The notes under the pieces were generated by a model. That model was given only the letters and a program-made list of their open reading frames with translations. It was not told the origin of the DNA and did no database searches. Positions 1 through 33,453 of a DNA stretch of 34,716 nucleotides are shown here, piece after piece. This stretch comes from a virus, in IMG/VR virus record IMGVR_UViG_3300046012_000219, positions 1 through 34,716 of that record; one strand, given 5' to 3'. The translations under genes were made by a program, and so were the position numbers. Each line of letters begins with the position of its first letter. Position 1 is the first letter of the stretch.

Positions 1-1453
1 AATTCGCTTCGACCTCGAGCTGCGGGATCGCGGCGTTCTCGACGATCAGCGCCGGGATGCCGTCGCGGCCGTAGGCGCGCTCGGCGAGCTTCAACACGTC
101 GACGCGTGCGTGCAGGTCACCGGTGGCCGCTTGCAGCTGGCCGAGCTCTGCTTGTGCCGCGGCGATCTGTTCGAGCCGCTGCTCGGCCCGAGCGAGCTCG
201 GCGGCGCGCTGCTCGAGCGTGGCGCGGGTGTCGCGGACGGTGCCCTTCGCGATCGCGACGGCACGTTCCGCGACCGTCAGATCGCCGGCGTCGATGTTCT
301 CGGCGTCGATGGCGGACTGCTTCGCGTCGAGCGTGACGCCTGCCGCCGCGGCCTGTTCTAGGAGCGGTGTCCGTGCCGCCGCCAGCCGCTCGAGGTGGCT
401 GATCCGCTCGGCGAGCTCGCCCTGCTGTATGGCCGCGGCGCGCGCTGCGACGAGCTGGAGTTCGATCGGCCGCGGATCATCGAGCGCCGGGGGAATCTCG
501 ATCTGCTCGAGCTGCTCATGCAGGCCGGCGATCGCCTCGAGGTCCGCGGACGCCTGCGTGTCGATCTCCGCGGCGCCCTGATCGAGACCAGTCGCCTCGT
601 CACGGTAGGACTGCGCTGCCCGCGCCGCCGCTTCGGCACCGAGCGTCTGCCCGCAACGATCGCACGACGAGGCTTCGCCGATGTGGTCGTCGAGATGCTG
701 GGCCTTCGCACGGGCTTCGTTCGCATCAGCGTGAAGCGCGAGCGCCTGGTCGACCAGCCGGCCACGCGCGAGATCACGCTGTTCGATCTGCGCGGCGAGC
801 TCGTCACGCCGGCGACGCGCGTCGAGGACCGCCTGCGCCGCTTGGGTCAGATCGGCAAGCCTCGCCTCGAGGTCCCGGATCCGTGCGGCGTCAGCGGCGA
901 CCTCGTCGAGTTCGACACGGCAGTCGTCGAGCGCGGCTGCGGCGGCGTGCGTCTGGCCGAGCTGCTCGTGCAGCCGGTCGTACTCCTGCCGGGCTGCTGC
1001 GAGTTCGGCGCCCAGTCGCAGAAGCCGCTCGTTCTTCGCCGCGATCGCGGCGTGCTGCTCCTGCGCCTGCTCGAGCCTCTGCTCCGCGTCGACGACGAGC
1101 TCGGCGGCACCGTCACGCTGCCGGCGGACGAGATCCCGGGCGGCGATCGCGGCTGGCTGGTCGGCGACGGTCGCCGCGAGCCGCTCCTGGTTCGTCGACG
1201 CGGCGACCAGCTCACGCTCGACGTCGCGCAGCTCAGCGCGCGCACGGTCGAGCATCCGGTCCCACAACCCGAGGCCGAGGATCTCCGCGAGGATCGCCTT
1301 CCGATCGCGCGGCTGCGCCTCCGTGAACGCCGCACCGTCGCCCTGGCGGAGGAACGCTGACGCACGGAACGTCGTCCGCGACAGGCCGAGGGTCGTCTCG
1401 ATTGCCTCCTGAGTGGCCGTGGTCGTCTCGCGGGTGAGTGCAACCCACGTCAT
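1..1453 (-). CDS. sbcC: SbcC/Rad50-like ATPase, C-terminal fragment (runs off the window)
   Basis: This is the larger piece of a split SbcC (Rad50 family) protein, the ATPase partner of the SbcD nuclease in double-strand-end processing. Reading from ATG 1453 I checked every codon down to position 2 and found no stop, giving about 484 visible residues; the 3' end lies outside the window. Near the N-terminus is the Q-loop region (SAFLRQGDGAAF, Gln at residue 37). A long coiled-coil-like stretch rich in Glu, Ala, Arg and Leu carries a zinc hook CDRC (Cys264 and Cys267, encoded at 653-664). The visible end reads like the returning coiled coil and start of the second ATPase lobe (GRDGIPALIVENAAIPQLE). 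It has no Walker A; that motif is in the separate ORF at 1920-2225. Its ATG overlaps the stop of the endonuclease gene (ATGA at 1450-1453), so translation is probably coupled. The signature and Walker B motifs are expected beyond the window edge. Confidence 0.9.
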   Translation of the reverse strand, partial: MTWVALTRETTTATQEAIETTLGLSRTTFRASAFLRQGDGAAFTEAQPRDRKAILAEILGLGLWDRMLDRARAELRDVERELVAASTNQERLAATVADQPAAIAARDLVRRQRDGAAELVVDAEQRLEQAQEQHAAIAAKNERLLRLGAELAAARQEYDRLHEQLGQTHAAAAALDDCRVELDEVAADAARIRDLEARLADLTQAAQAVLDARRRRDELAAQIEQRDLARGRLVDQALALHADANEARAKAQHLDDHIGEASSCDRCGQTLGAEAAARAAQSYRDEATGLDQGAAEIDTQASADLEAIAGLHEQLEQIEIPPALDDPRPIELQLVAARAAAIQQGELAERISHLERLAAARTPLLEQAAAAGVTLDAKQSAIDAENIDAGDLTVAERAVAIAKGTVRDTRATLEQRAAELARAEQRLEQIAAAQAELGQLQAATGDLHARVDVLKLAERAYGRDGIPALIVENAAIPQLEVEAN

Positions 1454-1920
1454 GCGAGCACCGACCGATGCAGGCGCCTGTAGGCGCGCTGCTGGCAATC
1501 ACGGGAGCAGTACCGTTGCTTCGCTGCGTTCGGCCCGATCGTCTTGGGTTGGAAGTTCACGCCGCATTGAGGGCACGCGCGAAGGCGCATGGCGTGCTCG
1601 CGCCACCGTGTGCGCATCGCCAGCATCTCCTTGGCCCGCGCAGAACGGCGCGCACCGAGGTACGGCAGGAGTAGATGGAGAACCGCCTCGCCGCCGTCGC
1701 CATCGGCCTGCCAGCGCCAGAGGTGACGATGATGCGGCCGACGAAGAGTCCCGTCGCCGCGCACGGCGCCGATCCTGACGATCGCGGCGAACCTCCGCAC
1801 GATGTCCTCGTCCGCCATGACGAGCGCGACGTGACGCGCCGACCTTCCGCGGTGCCCGGTGATGCAGCCCTCGCCCTCGAAGAGGCCGGCCGCCCACGCG
1901 ATCTGCTGATCGCGCGTCAT
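1450..1920 (-). CDS. LAGLIDADG homing endonuclease inserted in sbcC
   Basis: A 156-residue protein with a LAGLIDADG-type motif at residues 9-20 (WAAGLFEGEGCI, with Glu17 at the expected catalytic acid position), followed by a basic region typical of a single-motif, homodimeric enzyme. The C-terminus has a possible zinc site: CPQC (Cys116, Cys119) and CSRDC (Cys138, Cys142). Such enzymes cut a specific DNA site and drive copying of their own gene into it. The gene fills exactly the gap between the two sbcC fragments: its ATG overlaps the stop of the N-fragment (TGATGA) and its stop overlaps the ATG of the C-fragment. No non-coding flank exists for a group I intron. The three reading frames differ, so it is not an intein. 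The most likely reading is a free-standing homing endonuclease gene that split sbcC. Confidence 0.87.
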   Translation of the reverse strand: MTRDQQIAWAAGLFEGEGCITGHRGRSARHVALVMADEDIVRRFAAIVRIGAVRGDGTLRRPHHRHLWRWQADGDGGEAVLHLLLPYLGARRSARAKEMLAMRTRWREHAMRLRACPQCGVNFQPKTIGPNAAKQRYCSRDCQQRAYRRLHRSVLA

Positions 1921-2225
1921 CAGTCCTCCCACTTCTCGAAGTCCAGCGTCGTTTTGCCTCTGCCGGCGGCGTTGTAGGTGCGCCTGACCCGGTAGAGCTC
2001 GCCGGCGTGCTCGAACTCGAGCTGCAGCTCGAGCCGTTCTTCGCCCGATGTGAGCAGCGGCGGCAGCTCGCCGCGGTCGGCGAACAGCGCGATATCGACG
2101 AGGTTCAGGATGGAGGACTTCCCGGCGCCGTTCGGTCCGGTCACGGCGACGCATCCGTCCGGAAGAGCGATGTCGAGATCCGGGAAGGTCCGGTAGTTCG
2201 TCGCGGTTAGATGACGGGGGTTCAC
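1920..2225 (-). CDS. sbcC: SbcC/Rad50-like ATPase, N-terminal fragment (Walker A)
   Basis: A 101-residue ORF holding the start of an SbcC/Rad50 ATPase lobe. It has the typical opening (NYRTFPDLDIALPDG) and a Walker A P-loop GPNGAGKSS at residues 30-38. It ends after the beta strand YRVRRTYNAAGRGKTTLDFE with KWED and a stop. The family continues directly into the sequence found at the start of the ORF beginning at 1453 (TWVALTRET, then the Q-loop), so this is one gene in two pieces with the homing endonuclease between. The GTG start at 2225 is supported by GGAGG at 2231-2235 with a 5-base gap. If functional, this fragment must associate with the C-terminal fragment to rebuild the ATP-binding lobe. 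Confidence 0.88.
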   Translation of the reverse strand: MNPRHLTATNYRTFPDLDIALPDGCVAVTGPNGAGKSSILNLVDIALFADRGELPPLLTSGEERLELQLEFEHAGELYRVRRTYNAAGRGKTTLDFEKWED

Positions 2226-3928: not shown

Positions 3929-4116
3929 GACGCCACCCCGAGCTCGCGGCACAGCTCGCGGTAGGACGCGACGGCCTGTCGGCGAAGTTCGGCGAGCTCC
4001 GGGTCGGTGACGCCGTCGACGATCTTGACCTCGAACTGTGGCTCGCGCTTCGCGTTCAGCGACACACGGATCGTCGACTTCGACTCGACCTGCTGCTCGT
4101 GCTCGGGCGCGCTCAC
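3925..4116 (-). CDS. Small unknown protein downstream of recT
   Basis: A 63-residue charged protein starting at GTG 4116, overlapping the recT stop by GTGA. It has a beta-strand-like middle (TIRVSLNAKREPQFEVKIVDG) and a helical C-terminus (ELAELRRQAVASYRELCREL). No family recognised. The tight coupling to recT and the conserved-looking composition support it as real. Confidence 0.65.
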   Translation of the reverse strand: MSAPEHEQQVESKSTIRVSLNAKREPQFEVKIVDGVTDPELAELRRQAVASYRELCRELGVAS

Positions 4117-5243
4117 GCTGCCGCCGCTTCCTTCTCGGCGAGCACCTGCTGGTACAGCTCCGGCTTGTGAACCCGGCAGAAATTCCACACCGCGGTCGAC
4201 ACGACCGGGTTCAGGTCGTCCTTGCGGAGCCCGTACACGAACCAGCCGTCCGACCCTTCGATGCCCGCGATCTCGCCGAGCGTCTTGCCGACGTGCTTCC
4301 CGGACGGCAACTCGAAGATCGCCGCCTCGTTCGCGGCGGCCTCGATCGCTGCCTGTTCGTCCGCGTTCAACTCGGGACGGTCAAGGTCGGGCTCGTCGTC
4401 TGGGCCAGGAGCCGCCGACACACCGGGGTCAGGTGGTGCGTCGGCGGCCTGCTGGCTGTCGCCACCCTGCTCCGCCGTCGGTGTCCCTGTAGTCGGGGGA
4501 ACCGTTGAGGGGGCGGCGATCTGCCGGGCCGGGGGAGAATCAGGCCCGTACAGACTCTCGATAGCTTCGGCCGGGTCGATGCTGACCGCGTCGACGATGC
4601 GGAAGAGCCGCTCGCGGTCGGCGTCCGTCAGTGGCAGCTCCTTTACGACGGCCTTCGCGGGCGTCTTGGCCCACATTTCGTCTGGCCACTTGTCCCAGAT
4701 CTGCTTGGTCGTCGCGATCTCGCGCCGCTTGAGGATGTCGACGGCGTACATCACCTTGATCTGGCGGCGGCCGTCCCGATGCGTCGCGATCGCGTATGCA
4801 GCGATGAGGTCACCGCGGTCGAGGCCGGGGCGCGGCAACCGATGCTGGATCGACGGCGGCTCCTCGGTGTACTCGAACTCGTCGTGCTCGCGCACGGACC
4901 GGTAGCGGAGCGCCCAGCCGAAGTCCGCGGCGGTCTTCTGCAGCCCGTACACCATCGGCTGGAACACGGCTTTGCCGCCACGCCCGACGATCGCGGCTTC
5001 CTTCCCGTCCGGCATAAGGCCGGCGGCGGCCGCCTGCACGAACGCGCGCATGATCGACTGCTGGTCGGGGATCTTCGCTATCTCCGCGTTCGTCATGATC
5101 GCGGTCGTCGCGATACGCGCGAACCGCTCCGGCGTGACGGTTGGAGGGAGCACCATCGCGATCTGCTGCTTGAACGCGTCACCGCGAACAGCCGCGACGA
5201 GCTGCTGCTCCGGGGTGCGCTGGACTACGTCAGTCCCAGTCAT
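4113..5243 (-). CDS. recT: RecT-family single-strand DNA annealing protein with C-terminal extension
   Basis: A 376-residue RecT-type annealase, which coats and pairs single-stranded DNA in phage recombination. The core (about residues 15-225) has hallmark features: TPERFARIATTAI, then SIMRAFVQAAAAGLMPDGKE, QPMVYGLQKTA and the later WAKTPAKAVVKEL. A linker rich in Pro, Ala, Asp and Gln (about 230-300) leads to a C-terminal segment (about 310-376) with FELPSGKHVGKTLGEI and GWFVYGLRK, resembling the small G-K-x-x-GKTL domain (DUF3820/ExoX C-terminal type) found on some nucleases. Start ATG 5243 follows AAGGAG. The partner exonuclease is usually RecE/YqaJ/lambda Exo; none is seen here, but SbcCD is in the same operon. 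Confidence 0.93.
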   Translation of the reverse strand: MTGTDVVQRTPEQQLVAAVRGDAFKQQIAMVLPPTVTPERFARIATTAIMTNAEIAKIPDQQSIMRAFVQAAAAGLMPDGKEAAIVGRGGKAVFQPMVYGLQKTAADFGWALRYRSVREHDEFEYTEEPPSIQHRLPRPGLDRGDLIAAYAIATHRDGRRQIKVMYAVDILKRREIATTKQIWDKWPDEMWAKTPAKAVVKELPLTDADRERLFRIVDAVSIDPAEAIESLYGPDSPPARQIAAPSTVPPTTGTPTAEQGGDSQQAADAPPDPGVSAAPGPDDEPDLDRPELNADEQAAIEAAANEAAIFELPSGKHVGKTLGEIAGIEGSDGWFVYGLRKDDLNPVVSTAVWNFCRVHKPELYQQVLAEKEAAAA

Positions 5244-5482: not shown

Positions 5483-5655
5483 GACACCCTCCGCTCGAGG
5501 TGCGCCCCAACAACGCAGATCGCGATCACAGCCGCCAGGAGGGCGAGGCACCAGAGGACGCCGGCGTCGGCGCCCATCGCGTCGTAGTGGAGAGCCGTGT
5601 AGGCCGCGACCGCGAGCGGGAACATCGCCAAGCTGAGAGCGGCGAGCAACCTCAC
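5479..5655 (-). CDS. Small two-span membrane protein
   Basis: A 58-residue protein starting at GTG 5655, overlapping the stop of the HTH gene by GTGA. It has two hydrophobic segments (about residues 3-20 and 30-50) joined by a short polar loop, and ends in a basic tail (ERRVS). It is the second gene of the early operon. Function unknown; it might act at the membrane in exclusion or lysogeny, but nothing in the sequence proves this. The longer reading of this frame up to 6063 crosses the operator and is rejected. Confidence 0.6.
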   Translation of the reverse strand: MRLLAALSLAMFPLAVAAYTALHYDAMGADAGVLWCLALLAAVIAICVVGAHLERRVS

Positions 5656-5915
5656 GCGGCAGCCTTTTTGAGTGGTTCTCCTGTGAAGAAGAACGACATC
5701 GGCTTCTTGAGCACCGCCGCGTAGCGGCGAAGGTTCGCGTTGCCTGGGGCGTTGTCGCCGGCGCGATGCTTTTGCACGAGGCGCAGGCTGATCCCGATCT
5801 CGTGGGCGAGGTCTTCGGTCTTCAGCCCGAGCTCTTCCTGCGCGTCCCGGATGCGGGCCGCGATGATCAGCTTGACCGGGTCGGCCTCGCCGTGGCGTGG
5901 TTCGTGTCGCGTCAT
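5652..5915 (-). CDS. HTH (XRE/Cro-like) regulator, first gene of the early operon
   Basis: An 87-residue DNA-binding protein with an XRE-type helix-turn-helix: ARIRDAQEELGLKTEDLAHE followed by IGISLRLVQKHRAGDNAPG. The C-terminal part (RRYAAVLKKPMSFFF) matches XRE proteins. It heads the recT-sbcCD operon and faces the plus-strand HTH gene at 5956 across the 5919-5952 operator, as a Cro-like gene would. I chose ATG 5915 because the likely -10 on this strand (5929-5924) puts the transcript start near 5917, so the mRNA is leaderless. The earlier in-frame start at 5942 lies inside the promoter. Which regulator plays repressor and which Cro is not certain. Confidence 0.85.
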   Translation of the reverse strand: MTRHEPRHGEADPVKLIIAARIRDAQEELGLKTEDLAHEIGISLRLVQKHRAGDNAPGNANLRRYAAVLKKPMSFFFTGEPLKKAAA

Positions 5916-5918
5916 CCA

Positions 5919-5947
5919 TTGACACGGTATACGACACAGCATAACGT
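5919..5947 (+). promoter_or_regulatory. Promoter for the plus-strand HTH gene
   Basis: -35 TTGACA at 5919-5924, 17-base spacer, -10 TAACGT at 5942-5947 (TAnnnT). The expected transcript start lies at about 5954-5956, on or next to ATG 5956, so the message would be leaderless. Confidence 0.7.
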
Positions 5948-5952
5948 GTCAA
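5924..5952 (-). promoter_or_regulatory. Promoter for the minus-strand early operon
   Basis: -35 TTGACA at 5952-5947, 17-base spacer, -10 TACCGT at 5929-5924. The expected start near 5917 is 2 bases before ATG 5915. This promoter shares its DNA with the opposite one, so the two polymerases cannot bind at once. Confidence 0.7.
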
Positions 5953-5955
5953 GCG

Positions 5956-6474
5956 ATGGCACGTCATATGTCGGCGACACAGCTCGGCGGGCTGAGTACC
6001 TTCCTTCTGGAGATGGCCTTGGACAAGGCGCGCATGAAGGGTCGGCTCGCCGCTGTCCTGCAAGACGAACGGAGGATCAGAGGTCGCGGCGATGCACGGC
6101 GGTTCCCACAGCCCGAAATGGCTCGGCTGCTCGGTTACTCGCTACGCCAGTACCAGCGGCTCGAGGATCCCGATGATGGGTCGCTTCCCACGTGGGACGA
6201 CCTCAACGAGATCCTCGCGAAGCTTGGCCGTCCGCAGTCAGACATCTTCGCCGAGGAGTCCGACGAGCCGCCTCTCAACGGAGAGTTGGGAGCTACTCCT
6301 GATCCGCCAGAGGCGGCAACAGTCGAAGAAACCCGCGATCTCCGGATCCTCGTCGATGCCCTGCTGCGTGACCGTGGCCTCGACCCGGAGGAGATCCTCC
6401 GTGACGCCCGGCTTCGGAACGGAGAGCCTGAACCAGGAGCTGAAGATCGCGAAGCTCCTGGCGAAGCTGCCTGA
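5956..6474 (+). CDS. HTH regulator (probable phage repressor)
   Basis: A 172-residue protein with a helix-turn-helix-like region at about residues 50-75 (RRFPQPEMARLLGYSLRQYQ followed by RLED), resembling XRE/Cro domains. The C-terminal half is acidic and helical. It is transcribed divergently from the minus-strand HTH gene across the shared operator. Start choice: ATG 5956 fits a leaderless transcript; ATG 5968, ATG 6014 and the ATG before KGRLAAVL are alternatives. The last 182 bases are opposite another ORF (6293-6637, minus strand), so the true C-terminus could be shorter only if a frameshift exists. Most likely the immunity repressor, by position. Confidence 0.75.
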   Translation: MARHMSATQLGGLSTFLLEMALDKARMKGRLAAVLQDERRIRGRGDARRFPQPEMARLLGYSLRQYQRLEDPDDGSLPTWDDLNEILAKLGRPQSDIFAEESDEPPLNGELGATPDPPEAATVEETRDLRILVDALLRDRGLDPEEILRDARLRNGEPEPGAEDREAPGEAA

Positions 6475-6660: not shown

Positions 6661-6981
6661 GTGACGGGTTCGAACGGCCACGTTGATCTAGGACGGTTGC
6701 CGATCGAGCAGCGCGCGCCGGCGCTCAGGAAGCTCCTCGGGCTCAAGCAGACGGATTTCGCGGCTCAGGTCGGAGTCAACGTTCGGCAAGTGAAGCGTTG
6801 GGAAGCCGGGGCGGTCCCGTCGGAGGAGTCAGCGCACGAGCTTGCGCGGGTCGCGCCGAGGAAGCTGAAGGCGAGGCCGGAGTGGTTCTTCATCCCGCGC
6901 GAGCGCCGCGAGGAGCGCGTCACCGAGCTCGAGCGGCGCGTCAACGATCTCGAGCGGCGGCTGCGGAAGGCTGGCCTGTAG
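6661..6981 (+). CDS. HTH protein with C-terminal coiled coil
   Basis: A 106-residue DNA-binding protein. The helix-turn-helix is clear: LRKLLGLKQTDFAAQVGVNV followed by RQVKRWEAGAVPS, a pattern shared by XRE and MqsA-like regulators. The C-terminal end (RVTELERRVNDLERRLRK) is a short leucine-zipper-like coiled coil suggesting dimer formation. I chose GTG 6661; the frame is open back to 6532, but the upstream part is Arg/Pro-rich and lies opposite the 6293-6637 gene. Its stop is directly followed by the ATG of the zinc-ribbon gene. Confidence 0.78.
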   Translation: MTGSNGHVDLGRLPIEQRAPALRKLLGLKQTDFAAQVGVNVRQVKRWEAGAVPSEESAHELARVAPRKLKARPEWFFIPRERREERVTELERRVNDLERRLRKAGL

Positions 6982-7224
6982 ATGGGGGCGCTGGCTGATT
7001 ACACGTACGGGCCGGTCAACCCGCAGATCGGTTGCCCACATTGCGGCAAGGCAGGGTCGGTCCACACAAAGGGCGTGAAGCTGAAGAAGGGTGTCAGCGG
7101 CGGGAAGGCCACCGGCGCTGTGTTGACCGGTGGCCTATCGACGCTCGCGACCGGCTTGTCGCGGAAGGAGAAAGCGATCCAGGCTCACTGCGACAACTGC
7201 GGCGTGACCTGGCATATCGGCTAG
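6982..7224 (+). CDS. Zinc-ribbon protein
   Basis: An 80-residue protein with two cysteine pairs, CPHC (about residues 18-21) and CDNC (about 70-73), forming a zinc ribbon around a Gly/Lys-rich hydrophobic middle (KATGAVLTGGLSTLATGLS) that could be a short membrane-associated helix. Small zinc ribbons of this type occur in actinobacteria and their phages. It begins right after the TAG of the HTH gene and is co-transcribed with it. Its last 131 bases overlap, tail to tail, an ORF on the minus strand (7094-7435). Confidence 0.75.
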   Translation: MGALADYTYGPVNPQIGCPHCGKAGSVHTKGVKLKKGVSGGKATGAVLTGGLSTLATGLSRKEKAIQAHCDNCGVTWHIG

Positions 7225-24259: not shown

Positions 24260-24910
24260 TCACCAGTCGAGCGCGAGCGGATCGTGGTCGCCGATCCAGC
24301 AGCACGCCACCCGTGCCGGGTTCATCCCCGCCATCGCGTGCGTCCCTATCAGCGACTTCACCGTGTCCGGGTGCTGCACGAGATTCGGGACGGTCGCCAA
24401 CGCAAGATCGCCGGTGTGACGGACGTACTCACCGAGCCGGTGGTCATCTCCGAGGTGGCCGTGCCGCCACCGCCGGGCGTCGACGAACTCGAGGATCCCC
24501 GACACGGCCCGGTGCGGGTAGATCGTCGCGACGCAGGGGAGCCAGTCGGCGGGGTCGAGCTCGACGTACCGGTCGTCACGCCAGCCCGCCTGACGGACGC
24601 GCTCTGCGGACCGGGGTGGGGCTCCGCCGACGAAGAGGCAGATGATCCGGTCTGGATGAGCGGCCACGATCCGGGCGGCGACGGCGGCGAGGTGCCGACA
24701 GGGGATGGCGTCGTCTTGGATGACCAGGAGATGGGTCTCCTCGTCGAGAGACTCCAGACAGGCTTGGTAGCTCCGCCACGCGTTCGCGAACGCGACCGGC
24801 TCCGGATCCTCGATCACCCGCATCGTTTCGAACCCTTCGAGCCGCTGGGTCAGCCGAGGGATCAGGTGGGCGCGGGCGGGATGGGTCTGGATTCGGCAGC
24901 CGATGGTCAC
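24260..24910 (-). CDS. Glycosyltransferase-like protein
   Basis: A 216-residue protein resembling small phage and bacterial glycosyltransferases: the segment HLLVIQDDAIPC (about residues 62-72) matches the acidic sugar-nucleotide site of these families, and RYVELDPADWLPCVATIYP plus HLGDDHRLGEYVR (an acidic GDD) fit the later acceptor part. It lies next to an acyltransferase, so the pair may modify a sugar on a virion or host surface. Start choice: GTG 24910 follows GGAGG (13 bases); the TTG at 24949 would include that site inside the protein. Not a firm family assignment. Confidence 0.68.
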   Translation of the reverse strand: MTIGCRIQTHPARAHLIPRLTQRLEGFETMRVIEDPEPVAFANAWRSYQACLESLDEETHLLVIQDDAIPCRHLAAVAARIVAAHPDRIICLFVGGAPPRSAERVRQAGWRDDRYVELDPADWLPCVATIYPHRAVSGILEFVDARRWRHGHLGDDHRLGEYVRHTGDLALATVPNLVQHPDTVKSLIGTHAMAGMNPARVACCWIGDHDPLALDW

Positions 24911-24970
24911 GCATCCGACTATGCCTCCGGATTCGGCGGGCGTCGGCAAATCGTGATGCGCGTTCCTACG

Positions 24971-26056
24971 TCAGACGGTGTCAGGGGCGGGCTCGAGCGC
25001 CTGAACGATCGGCTTCGGCCGCGCGCGCCGGTTCTTAAGCCGCAGCGCTGGGCGCTCGACGAGGAACCACGAGACGGCCACAGCGATCGCCAAGAGCGCG
25101 TATTCGACGGCGTACTCCTTCGGTTTGCTCGCCCACCGCTCGTGCTGAACCCACTGGAAGATCGGGAAGTGGAAGAGGTAGATCCCATAGGAGACGCGGC
25201 CGATCCAGACGAATGGCGTAAACGCGAACAGCGCGGACAGGGTGCTGCCGTCGGAGACCATCAGATGGCCGATCAGTACGGCAGAGGCGATCCCGGCAAC
25301 GGTGAGTCCGCCGTAGAGGGCGAAGTGGCCCTCGGATCCGTTCTTGGTCGCTGTGCCAATGACCACGAGCGCGGCGAGCGCGGCGAGTGCGAGCCATCCG
25401 GCAGGTTCGCGGCGCAGCGACGAGAGGCCGCCCCGCAGATAACCGACAGCAAGGAGTGCTCCGATGAGTAGCTGGTCGGTCTGGGAGATCAGCCAGTCGG
25501 GAACGCCTCGAACGTCGCCGGCGGTCATTGCAGCTCGGGACACGATCGCCAGGATGATCAGCACGGGAAGCGCTTTGCCGAGGAGCCGCCGCGAGGCGAG
25601 GAGCACGAGGAGCGCGGGCCAGAGGAGATAGAACTGCTCCTCGACAGCGAGCGACCACGTGTGGGCAAGAAAGCCGAGCGGATGCCCGAGCGCGGCGACG
25701 ATGTTCGCGACGTAGAAGAGCGCGGCCGGGATGGAGTACCACCTGCTGATGGAGACACCATTGTTGGCGCCGACGTACACGTTCGGGAGGAGCGCGACGA
25801 GCGCGAGCGCGAGAAGGAGCGGCGGGATGAGCCTGAGCGCCCGGCGCGCGTAGAAGCCAGCGAACCAGACTTTCCCGCGTGCCTCGAGCTCGACGAGAAG
25901 GAGAGCGGTGATCAGGAAGCCGGACAGCGTGAAGAAGATGTTCACGCCGTAGCCTCCGCCTTCGGTATGGGGGAACGAATGAGTCACAAGGACTAGGCCG
26001 ATCGCGAGAGCGCGTACGCCGTCAAGCGCTGGCTCGTAACGAAACCGCGGCTGCAC
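24971..26056 (-). CDS. Acyltransferase family 3 (OafA-like) membrane protein
   Basis: A 361-residue integral membrane protein of the acyltransferase-3 family, which moves acetyl groups onto surface sugars. Clear signs: LDGVRALAIGLVLVTHSF (Arg15, His26) at the start, then VNIFFTLSGFLIT at residues 39-50, YARRALRLIPPLLLALALVA (the conserved RR), WSLAVEEQFYLLWPALLVLL with the family's EEQFYLLWP, and about ten hydrophobic spans. It ends in a basic tail. In phages such genes modify the host surface (serotype conversion) or exclude other phages. It begins at GTG 26056 and has no strong ribosome binding site. Confidence 0.92.
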   Translation of the reverse strand: MQPRFRYEPALDGVRALAIGLVLVTHSFPHTEGGGYGVNIFFTLSGFLITALLLVELEARGKVWFAGFYARRALRLIPPLLLALALVALLPNVYVGANNGVSISRWYSIPAALFYVANIVAALGHPLGFLAHTWSLAVEEQFYLLWPALLVLLASRRLLGKALPVLIILAIVSRAAMTAGDVRGVPDWLISQTDQLLIGALLAVGYLRGGLSSLRREPAGWLALAALAALVVIGTATKNGSEGHFALYGGLTVAGIASAVLIGHLMVSDGSTLSALFAFTPFVWIGRVSYGIYLFHFPIFQWVQHERWASKPKEYAVEYALLAIAVAVSWFLVERPALRLKNRRARPKPIVQALEPAPDTV

Positions 26057-31591: not shown

Positions 31592-33453
31592 GCGGCCACC
31601 AGCTGCGGCTCAAGAAGCCTGCCGACGAACACATCGAAGCCGACAGGAAGCGGGGTGGGCTCGACGTCGTAAAGGGTTCGGGCTGCGTGCGCTTCGACCT
31701 GGTCGCCGATCGCGCGCGCGGCGACAGCGGGAAGGTTCCATCGGTGAAGCGTTTCGACGAGATCGTCGGCGCCGCCCTGCACTAGGGCCCGCTCGCCGGG
31801 AATGCCGGGAAGCAGACGGACCTGGTCGAACCCGAGCGCGGCAGCGACGAGCCGCTGCGGAACGGCGCCGATCGTCTGTTTGCATTCCGCGCAGGAGTTG
31901 TTTGCACGGGTCCTGATCCTCGATCCCGCGAGCGACCGTGACCGCTCAACCGCGAGCTCGGCGGCACCGAGGATCCGTGCCGACGCGACCGTGTCAGGTG
32001 GCCCATCGGGTGGCGGTCCGGCTTCGACCTCGGCGCCGGTTGTCGGGCCGGTCGGGGTGTCCTGCGATCCTTGGGCGTTCTCGATCTCGCCGGGCTCCGG
32101 CTCGATCCCTCCTGCTTTAACCGACGGGATCCCATACCACGCAAGCGACGAATCCCTTGTCGCGATACCGATCCGTTCGGCGCGCTCCACCTCGGTCGGC
32201 GCGTCATCGTCGTCGAAGTCGCACGCATCGCGGAGCGCAGCGAATCCGACCGCGCCGAGCGCCCACAGGTCCTTAGCGTCCTTAGCTCGGTCAGGATGGT
32301 TGATGATCGCGGCAGCGTCGTAGCCGACCACGAGATGCTCCCAGTCCTTGACTCCAGCCTCACGTGCGGCCGGCCGCAGATACGCCGACGTCAGATCGTC
32401 GCACAGCTCCTGACACACCGGCTGAATGTGCGCCTTGAACGTGCTCTCATCGACCTGCCACGCCGACCAGTGATTCACCTCGGCGAGTCCGAGCAGCACT
32501 TCCGGCGGCATGTCGAGGCCGATCGCGACACGCTTCAGCGCCTCGTCGCGCAGCGTGACCTCGCGGTACTCCTCGTTCGAGTCGCGGAAGCTGATGAAGT
32601 TGAACCCCTCCTGTACCCGCTCGGCACCGACACGAACGAGGAACGGGACGGCGGCGGCCGCAGTGCCTTCGTTCTGGATCGGCTCGGTGACGGCCTCGAT
32701 CAGATCCTCGTAGAACGGGTCGCCGACCATGTCCTCATCGCCGACCGGCTCCGGAGGAGGCGGCGAGATGTCATCAGCCATCACCAGCATCCCCGGCCCC
32801 GCTAGCCGCGAGCGGACACGCGCGCGGACGGCGGCCTGCAACAGAAGCAGCTCCTCGCAATCGCCGAGGACGCCTTCCAGCGACGAGTCTGCGCGGCCCG
32901 ACCAGACAGGATGCGGGCGCCACAACCGATACACGATCGCGAAGCCCGGCTGCAGAGCTGTCTCACCGTCCGGAAGCGCCTTCAACTCAACCGTCCCGGT
33001 CTCCGGCGAACCCTGCCGTGTGTACGTGCCTTCACCAGTCACGCGCAGCTCGAGCAGCGAGAGCATCTCCCATTTCTCGCCGAGCTCTTCGTCGTACGTG
33101 GCGGTCAGATAGCTCTCGCCGACAAGGAAACGCTGCCGGCCGTAGTTGCCGAGGAGGCTGGAGCGGCCACCGTTCGGGTCTTTGATCCGGTCGAGCAGGT
33201 CACGGATCTTCGCGTCTTCGGTTTCTTGTGGTTCCCCGTTCTCGTCGAGGAACGCCGGAAACACACGGATGTTCGAGAGGTTGCGGGCGAAGAAGTTGCC
33301 GGCGTACTTGATCGCGCCGAGCAGGTCGTAATACTCGAACGCTCGCAGCTGCCACTCCAACGCCTGCCTGCGCGCGGACGGCGACTTGACGGTCGCTTTC
33401 GCGGCCGACGCGGTGACCGCTGCCGGCGGGCGCCGGCGGGAGAGCAGGCCCAT
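31588..33453 (-). CDS. Portal protein
   Basis: A 621-residue portal protein, the dodecameric ring at one capsid vertex. The N-terminus (AFEYYDLLGAIKYAGNFFAR, NLSNIRVFPAFLDENGEPQE) and LLGNYGRQRFLVGESYLTAT match actinophage portals; RDEALKRVAIGLDMPPEVLL and WSAWQVDESTFKAHIQPVCQ are conserved core segments. It is longer than the usual 450-550 because of a C-terminal part (about residues 505-621) with a CAEC pair and GFDVFVGRLLE, perhaps linked to MuF. The start ATG 33453 is 5 bases after the stop of the previous small gene. Confidence 0.92.
   Translation of the reverse strand: MGLLSRRRPPAAVTASAAKATVKSPSARRQALEWQLRAFEYYDLLGAIKYAGNFFARNLSNIRVFPAFLDENGEPQETEDAKIRDLLDRIKDPNGGRSSLLGNYGRQRFLVGESYLTATYDEELGEKWEMLSLLELRVTGEGTYTRQGSPETGTVELKALPDGETALQPGFAIVYRLWRPHPVWSGRADSSLEGVLGDCEELLLLQAAVRARVRSRLAGPGMLVMADDISPPPPEPVGDEDMVGDPFYEDLIEAVTEPIQNEGTAAAAVPFLVRVGAERVQEGFNFISFRDSNEEYREVTLRDEALKRVAIGLDMPPEVLLGLAEVNHWSAWQVDESTFKAHIQPVCQELCDDLTSAYLRPAAREAGVKDWEHLVVGYDAAAIINHPDRAKDAKDLWALGAVGFAALRDACDFDDDDAPTEVERAERIGIATRDSSLAWYGIPSVKAGGIEPEPGEIENAQGSQDTPTGPTTGAEVEAGPPPDGPPDTVASARILGAAELAVERSRSLAGSRIRTRANNSCAECKQTIGAVPQRLVAAALGFDQVRLLPGIPGERALVQGGADDLVETLHRWNLPAVAARAIGDQVEAHAARTLYDVEPTPLPVGFDVFVGRLLEPQLVAA

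Follow-up and report, generated by a model that had tools for sequence, protein, structure and literature searches.

Genes around the control region

The window, that is, the whole stretch of 34,716 nucleotides analysed here (67% GC), is an IMG/VR virus record in which two divergent genes face each other across a short control region. On the minus strand, an 87-aa HTH protein (5652-5915) is encoded by the first gene of an early operon that continues with a RecT-like annealing protein (4113-5243, minus strand; PF03837, E = 3e-23) and SbcCD-like genes. This candidate Cro-like protein matches HTH_3 (E = 3e-4) and phage repressor/regulator PHROGs down to E = 3e-8. The plus-strand operon opens with a 172-aa HTH-like regulator, the candidate repressor (5956-6474), continues with a second HTH regulator (6661-6981; HTH_3, E = 1.5e-8) and ends with a small zinc-ribbon-like protein (6982-7224). 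The preliminary description had placed HTH genes on both sides, which the matches support better for the 87-aa protein than for the 172-aa protein, whose matches are weak (HTH_31, E = 0.01; phrog_8 transcriptional regulator, E = 0.0035) and whose AlphaFold model has a mean pLDDT of 45. The locus is of the CI/Cro type in that two divergent DNA-binding genes (the HTH match of one being weak) surround a shared control region and one of them, the 87-aa gene, heads the early operon. Gene order on both sides is what would be expected if the early operon were led by a Cro-like gene and a short lysogeny operon by a repressor.

Structural genes (portal, head, tape measure, tail and endolysin) run leftward at 7.4-34 kb, and the relatives of the portal protein are found in Mycobacterium, Gordonia, Microbacterium and Arthrobacter phages. 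The window, itself a fragment, yielded no integrase. Relatives of either HTH protein were absent from 84,980 bacterial and archaeal genomes, and among annotated phages the 87-aa protein had only distant HTH matches and the 172-aa protein none.

A predicted mirrored pair of superimposed promoters

Two predicted promoters on opposite strands occupy the DNA between these genes. The plus promoter consists of a -35 box TTGACA (5919-5924) and, after a 17-nt spacer, a -10 box TAACGT (5942-5947), while the minus promoter consists of TTGACA (5952-5947) and, again after 17 nt, TACCGT (5929-5924). Each -10 has a single base in common with the opposing -35 (positions 5924 and 5947), and the ATG codons (5956 on the plus strand, 5915 on the minus strand) are separated from their -10 boxes by 8 nt on both sides. 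The two halves are mirrored about position 5935.5, start codons included. The boxes, spacers and overlaps reported in the preliminary description are thereby confirmed at 5919-5952, and they are kept in the one relative described below.

Such sites are rare in DNA of this composition. The pattern TTGACA-N16-18-TAnnnT occurs in the window at these two sites and nowhere else, for an expectation of 0.03 per strand per window, and the exact pair of -35 boxes did not occur once in the 6 Mb of simulated first-order Markov sequence, matched to the window's composition, from which that expectation was derived. A stock sigma-70 scan of the window reported neither promoter because each -10 matches TATAAT at just three of six positions; the -10 boxes are thus weak by the E. 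coli consensus. Rfam returned no RNA family in the window.

The two superimposed antiparallel promoters make up an imperfect palindrome of 34 bp (5919-5952, both strands), which had been described as fully symmetric. That description is overstated: the promoters are mirrored, but pairing in the 34-mer is limited to 12 of 17 positions (11 of 12 in the outer arms) and, outside the promoter hexamers, it falls to chance level (3/8 in the window, 4/8 in the relative). Since the -35 and -10 boxes of mirrored superimposed promoters generate a palindrome on their own, the palindrome by itself is no evidence for an operator, and the 34-bp symmetry appears to be largely that of the two promoters themselves. 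An operator dyad extending past the promoter hexamers was considered and rejected, as symmetry at these free positions is not significant.

The predicted transcripts would start at about 5954 (plus) and 5917 (minus), 7 nt past each -10 and approximately 37 bp apart. Computed leaders of about 0-3 nt would agree with the earlier claim that both transcripts begin within some 3 bases of a regulator start codon, and we infer that both mRNAs are leaderless or nearly so. The 8-nt distance from -10 to ATG is found on both sides in both phages and is accompanied by the absence of a Shine-Dalgarno-like motif from both regulator genes, which is a weak sign alone since 11 of 25 other genes checked also have none. 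Leaderless translation is common in mycobacteria, where it concerns nearly a quarter of transcripts (PMC4633059).

Conservation and recurrence of the promoter pair

Single-sequence and alignment searches of IMG/VR yielded one relative, IMGVR_UViG_3300015203_000012 (50 kb), and no other. It is syntenic with the window over 1.3 kb, with 73% DNA identity (over 1.34 kb) and identities of 74% and 77% for the 172-aa and 87-aa proteins, respectively; a gene similar to that for the second HTH regulator lies at the same place (ORF 31678-32016). Its element, TTGACATGTTAGGCGACGCGACCTAACGTGTCAA, retains both -35 boxes and the plus -10 box unchanged, the minus -10 box being TAACAT. In this two-sequence comparison, counted from the alignment, 20 of 22 hexamer positions are kept as against 6 of 12 central bases; hexamers and start positions were retained, with both ATGs 8 nt past the -10, while the centre diverged. 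The mirrored pair is also the sole match to TTGACA-N16-18-TAnnnT in the 50 kb of the relative. Tyrosine recombinase matches at 38.8-40.4 kb of this genome support a temperate lifestyle of the lineage; there are two of them, adjacent (38765-40392, loci L018-L020) and encoded on the strand that carries the early operon.

When IMG/VR was scanned for the arms of the palindrome at any gap from 5 to 19, 33 stretches were returned, which sort by eye into 17-18 distinct families. Nine to ten of these have gaps of 12-13, equivalent to promoter spacings of 17 and 18, an excess in two of the 15 gap classes with P between 3e-5 and 1e-4 under equal chances over 15 gaps. The fixed 34-bp form is present in five contigs, the relative among them. 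In an unrelated GC-rich phage (L005) an HTH gene begins 5 bp away, in another contig (L008) the element adjoins an HTH gene, and in a third (L006) it lies between genes that, named by eye, are Arc-like and P22-type antirepressor-like. These occurrences suggest that predicted mirrored promoters have appeared repeatedly in phages that are not related, in many cases next to a regulator gene. When start codons were added to the search, with the -35 relaxed to TTGAC and a spacer of 17 or 18, only the relative was matched; the predicted doubly leaderless mirrored form is rare and found in this phage and one relative only.

Two details of the scan may be mentioned. The Arc-like protein of L006 is of the ribbon-helix-helix kind, and a second related repeat, GGTGGTAGTGTTTTGCTACCACG, adjoins the palindrome (6813-6846). 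Mirrored pairs with 18-bp spacing also lie between divergent genes in unrelated phages (L026, L030; L028, L032, L036, L040, L044), the flanking genes being, by eye, HTH/ATPase or peptidase-like/cyclotransferase-like.

Polymerase exclusion and bistability

As all elements of both predicted promoters fall within 34 bp and have two bases in common, binding of polymerase would be exclusive, and it follows from the geometry that two RNA polymerases cannot occupy these 34 bp in both orientations. The proposal that polymerase on one side must exclude the other is therefore supported by the layout, and exclusive binding has been stated and tested at other overlapping promoters (PMC4207663, PMC12825309). 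Whether exclusion matters depends on promoter occupancy. All five E. coli bidirectional promoters that were tested had too little basal activity for competition, competition being seen only once one direction had been activated (PMC12825309).

The further suggestion that DNA layout could make the switch bistable was not borne out. In a toy model, exclusion alone, or exclusion together with regulators blocking both promoters, never produced two stable states, and bistability arose only with regulators whose repression was confined to the opposite promoter. A toggle would be poorly served by a perfectly symmetric operator because a bound protein silences both sides, and selectivity would consequently need sites or contacts outside the symmetry. 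With direction-selective repressors, exclusion widened the bistable range from 9 to 14 of 20 settings (n = 1.5) and from 14 to 17 of 20 (n = 2). Tentatively, it could be proposed that a single RNA polymerase binding at the mirrored, doubly leaderless pair picks which regulator is made, and that exclusion lowers the repressor cooperativity needed for a stable decision.

A putative lysis-lysogeny switch

The locus is probably that of a CI/Cro-like lysis-lysogeny switch whose divergent control region carries superimposed mirrored leaderless promoters, and the uncultured phage to which it belongs is probably a temperate, actinophage-like siphovirus. From the sequence layout, its conservation in one relative and the gene neighbourhood, all of which are observed, we infer promoter activity and start sites, binding of the regulators, the identity of the repressor and a temperate lifestyle. 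One RNA polymerase bound to two housekeeping-sigma-type promoters superimposed in mirror image would fire left or right, never both at once. Leftward firing would produce the 87-aa Cro-like HTH protein followed by RecT and the SbcCD-like early genes, while rightward firing would produce the 172-aa protein and the rest of the short regulator (lysogeny) operon, both mRNAs starting no more than about 3 nt from a start codon. The regulators would probably bind in and around the 34-bp element, autoregulate and tip the balance through non-symmetric sites or contacts.

Candidate sites for such binding, unproven, are five GACAC/GTGTC motifs (at 5904, 5921, 5933, 5946 and 5976, within 5904-5980), two of which belong to the palindrome arms. 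They form the densest cluster in the window (0.2 expected per 75 bp, for a motif picked after the fact), and the relative has a looser GACRC cluster of six copies. Together with position 12, which differs between the window and the relative on both arms, the cluster gives weak hints of regulator sites. These same hints would be expected if the palindrome served mainly as a regulator operator, a single dyad to which a dimer or tetramer binds, and if the promoters were incidental to it or just one of the two were real; the recurrence of the TTGACACG arms beside the HTH gene of the unrelated GC-rich phage L005, where the symmetry runs further in, points the same way. We nevertheless regard this as unlikely: symmetry at the free positions is at chance in both phages, mirrored elements across IMG/VR cluster at promoter spacings of 17-18 instead of being spread over arbitrary ones, and the 8-nt ATG gap kept on both sides is something that an operator alone does not need.

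Still less likely is that the HTH genes are an autoregulated pair, toxin-antitoxin-like or timing early genes, in a lytic phage. The lack of an integrase in the window and the fact that the 87-aa and 172-aa proteins match only general HTH/regulator families would agree with such a pair, but the syntenic relative has tyrosine recombinases, and divergent regulators next to early recombination genes are typical of temperate phages. The least probable of these alternatives, and a very improbable one, is that of a bistable switch encoded in the DNA, in which the state would be stored by RNA polymerase exclusion itself. The geometry makes steric exclusion inevitable and, in the toy model, such exclusion does widen the bistable range of direction-selective repressors; alone or with symmetric repression, however, it is monostable, and the basal activity of tested bidirectional promoters falls short of what competition demands (PMC12825309).

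Relation to known switches

Neither overlapping divergent promoters nor doubly leaderless cI/cro genes are new in themselves. Overlapping divergent promoters under repressors occur in Tn10 tetA/tetR and P22 immI Pant/Pmnt, neither of which is, to our knowledge, doubly leaderless or mirror-symmetric. The immB region of the N15-type telomere phage PY54 similarly has divergent cI and cro genes, both transcribed from the AUG onward, but its cro promoter is up to 40 bp away from OR3, its operators are separate 16-bp palindromes, and mirror-image promoters sharing one stretch of DNA are not described for it (PMC4488713). The Pc/Pr conjugation switch of pLS20 has coinciding or overlapping divergent promoters that accommodate one polymerase at a time and adjoins an autoregulating master regulator; unlike the phage pair, it is located on a plasmid, with promoters of very unequal strength, a long untranslated Pc leader and looping operators (PMC4207663). 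Among actinophages, mycobacteriophage BPs has divergent repressor and early promoters, Prep and PR (genes 33-34), with intergenic operators; its operator, the 12-bp palindrome CGACATATGTCG, is situated between the -10 and -35 of PR, with a second operator downstream of Prep, and it is not known to have a mirrored superimposed promoter pair (PMC4557955). A likeness by eye of 5963-5974 to this BPs operator (one mismatch) was dropped, the stretch being coding and having two mismatches in the relative.

The E. coli bidirectional promoters of Warman and colleagues also use pseudo-symmetric DNA that polymerase binds in either orientation, one at a time, but they have a shared -10 and starts typically 10, 18 or 23 bp apart (PMC12825309). 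The phage pair falls outside this class, since its -10 boxes are separate, each overlapping the opposing -35 by one base, and its predicted starts are some 37 bp apart. It is best viewed as a pair of promoters conserved at what is probably a phage immunity switch; it varies the known theme of overlapping divergent regulator promoters without amounting to a new type of switch. Provided that both promoters function as predicted, they would constitute a minimal switch, with both promoters and both translation starts packed into the 46 bp that run from one start codon to the other, and this would provide a compact natural test of the respective shares of RNA polymerase exclusion and repressor binding in a lysis-lysogeny decision.

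Other genes of the window

An SbcC-like gene (2-2225, minus strand) appears to be split into an N-terminal ATP-binding piece (1920-2225) and the remainder of SbcC (2-1498). Between them lies a homing-endonuclease-like ORF (1450-2154) with an HNH PHROG match and, by eye, a GLFEGEGC motif. The split is possibly due to an intron, an intein or an endonuclease insertion; there was no Rfam intron match at this gene. O-antigen acetylase-like and glucosyltransferase-like genes are found inside the structural cluster (24260-26056, minus strand).
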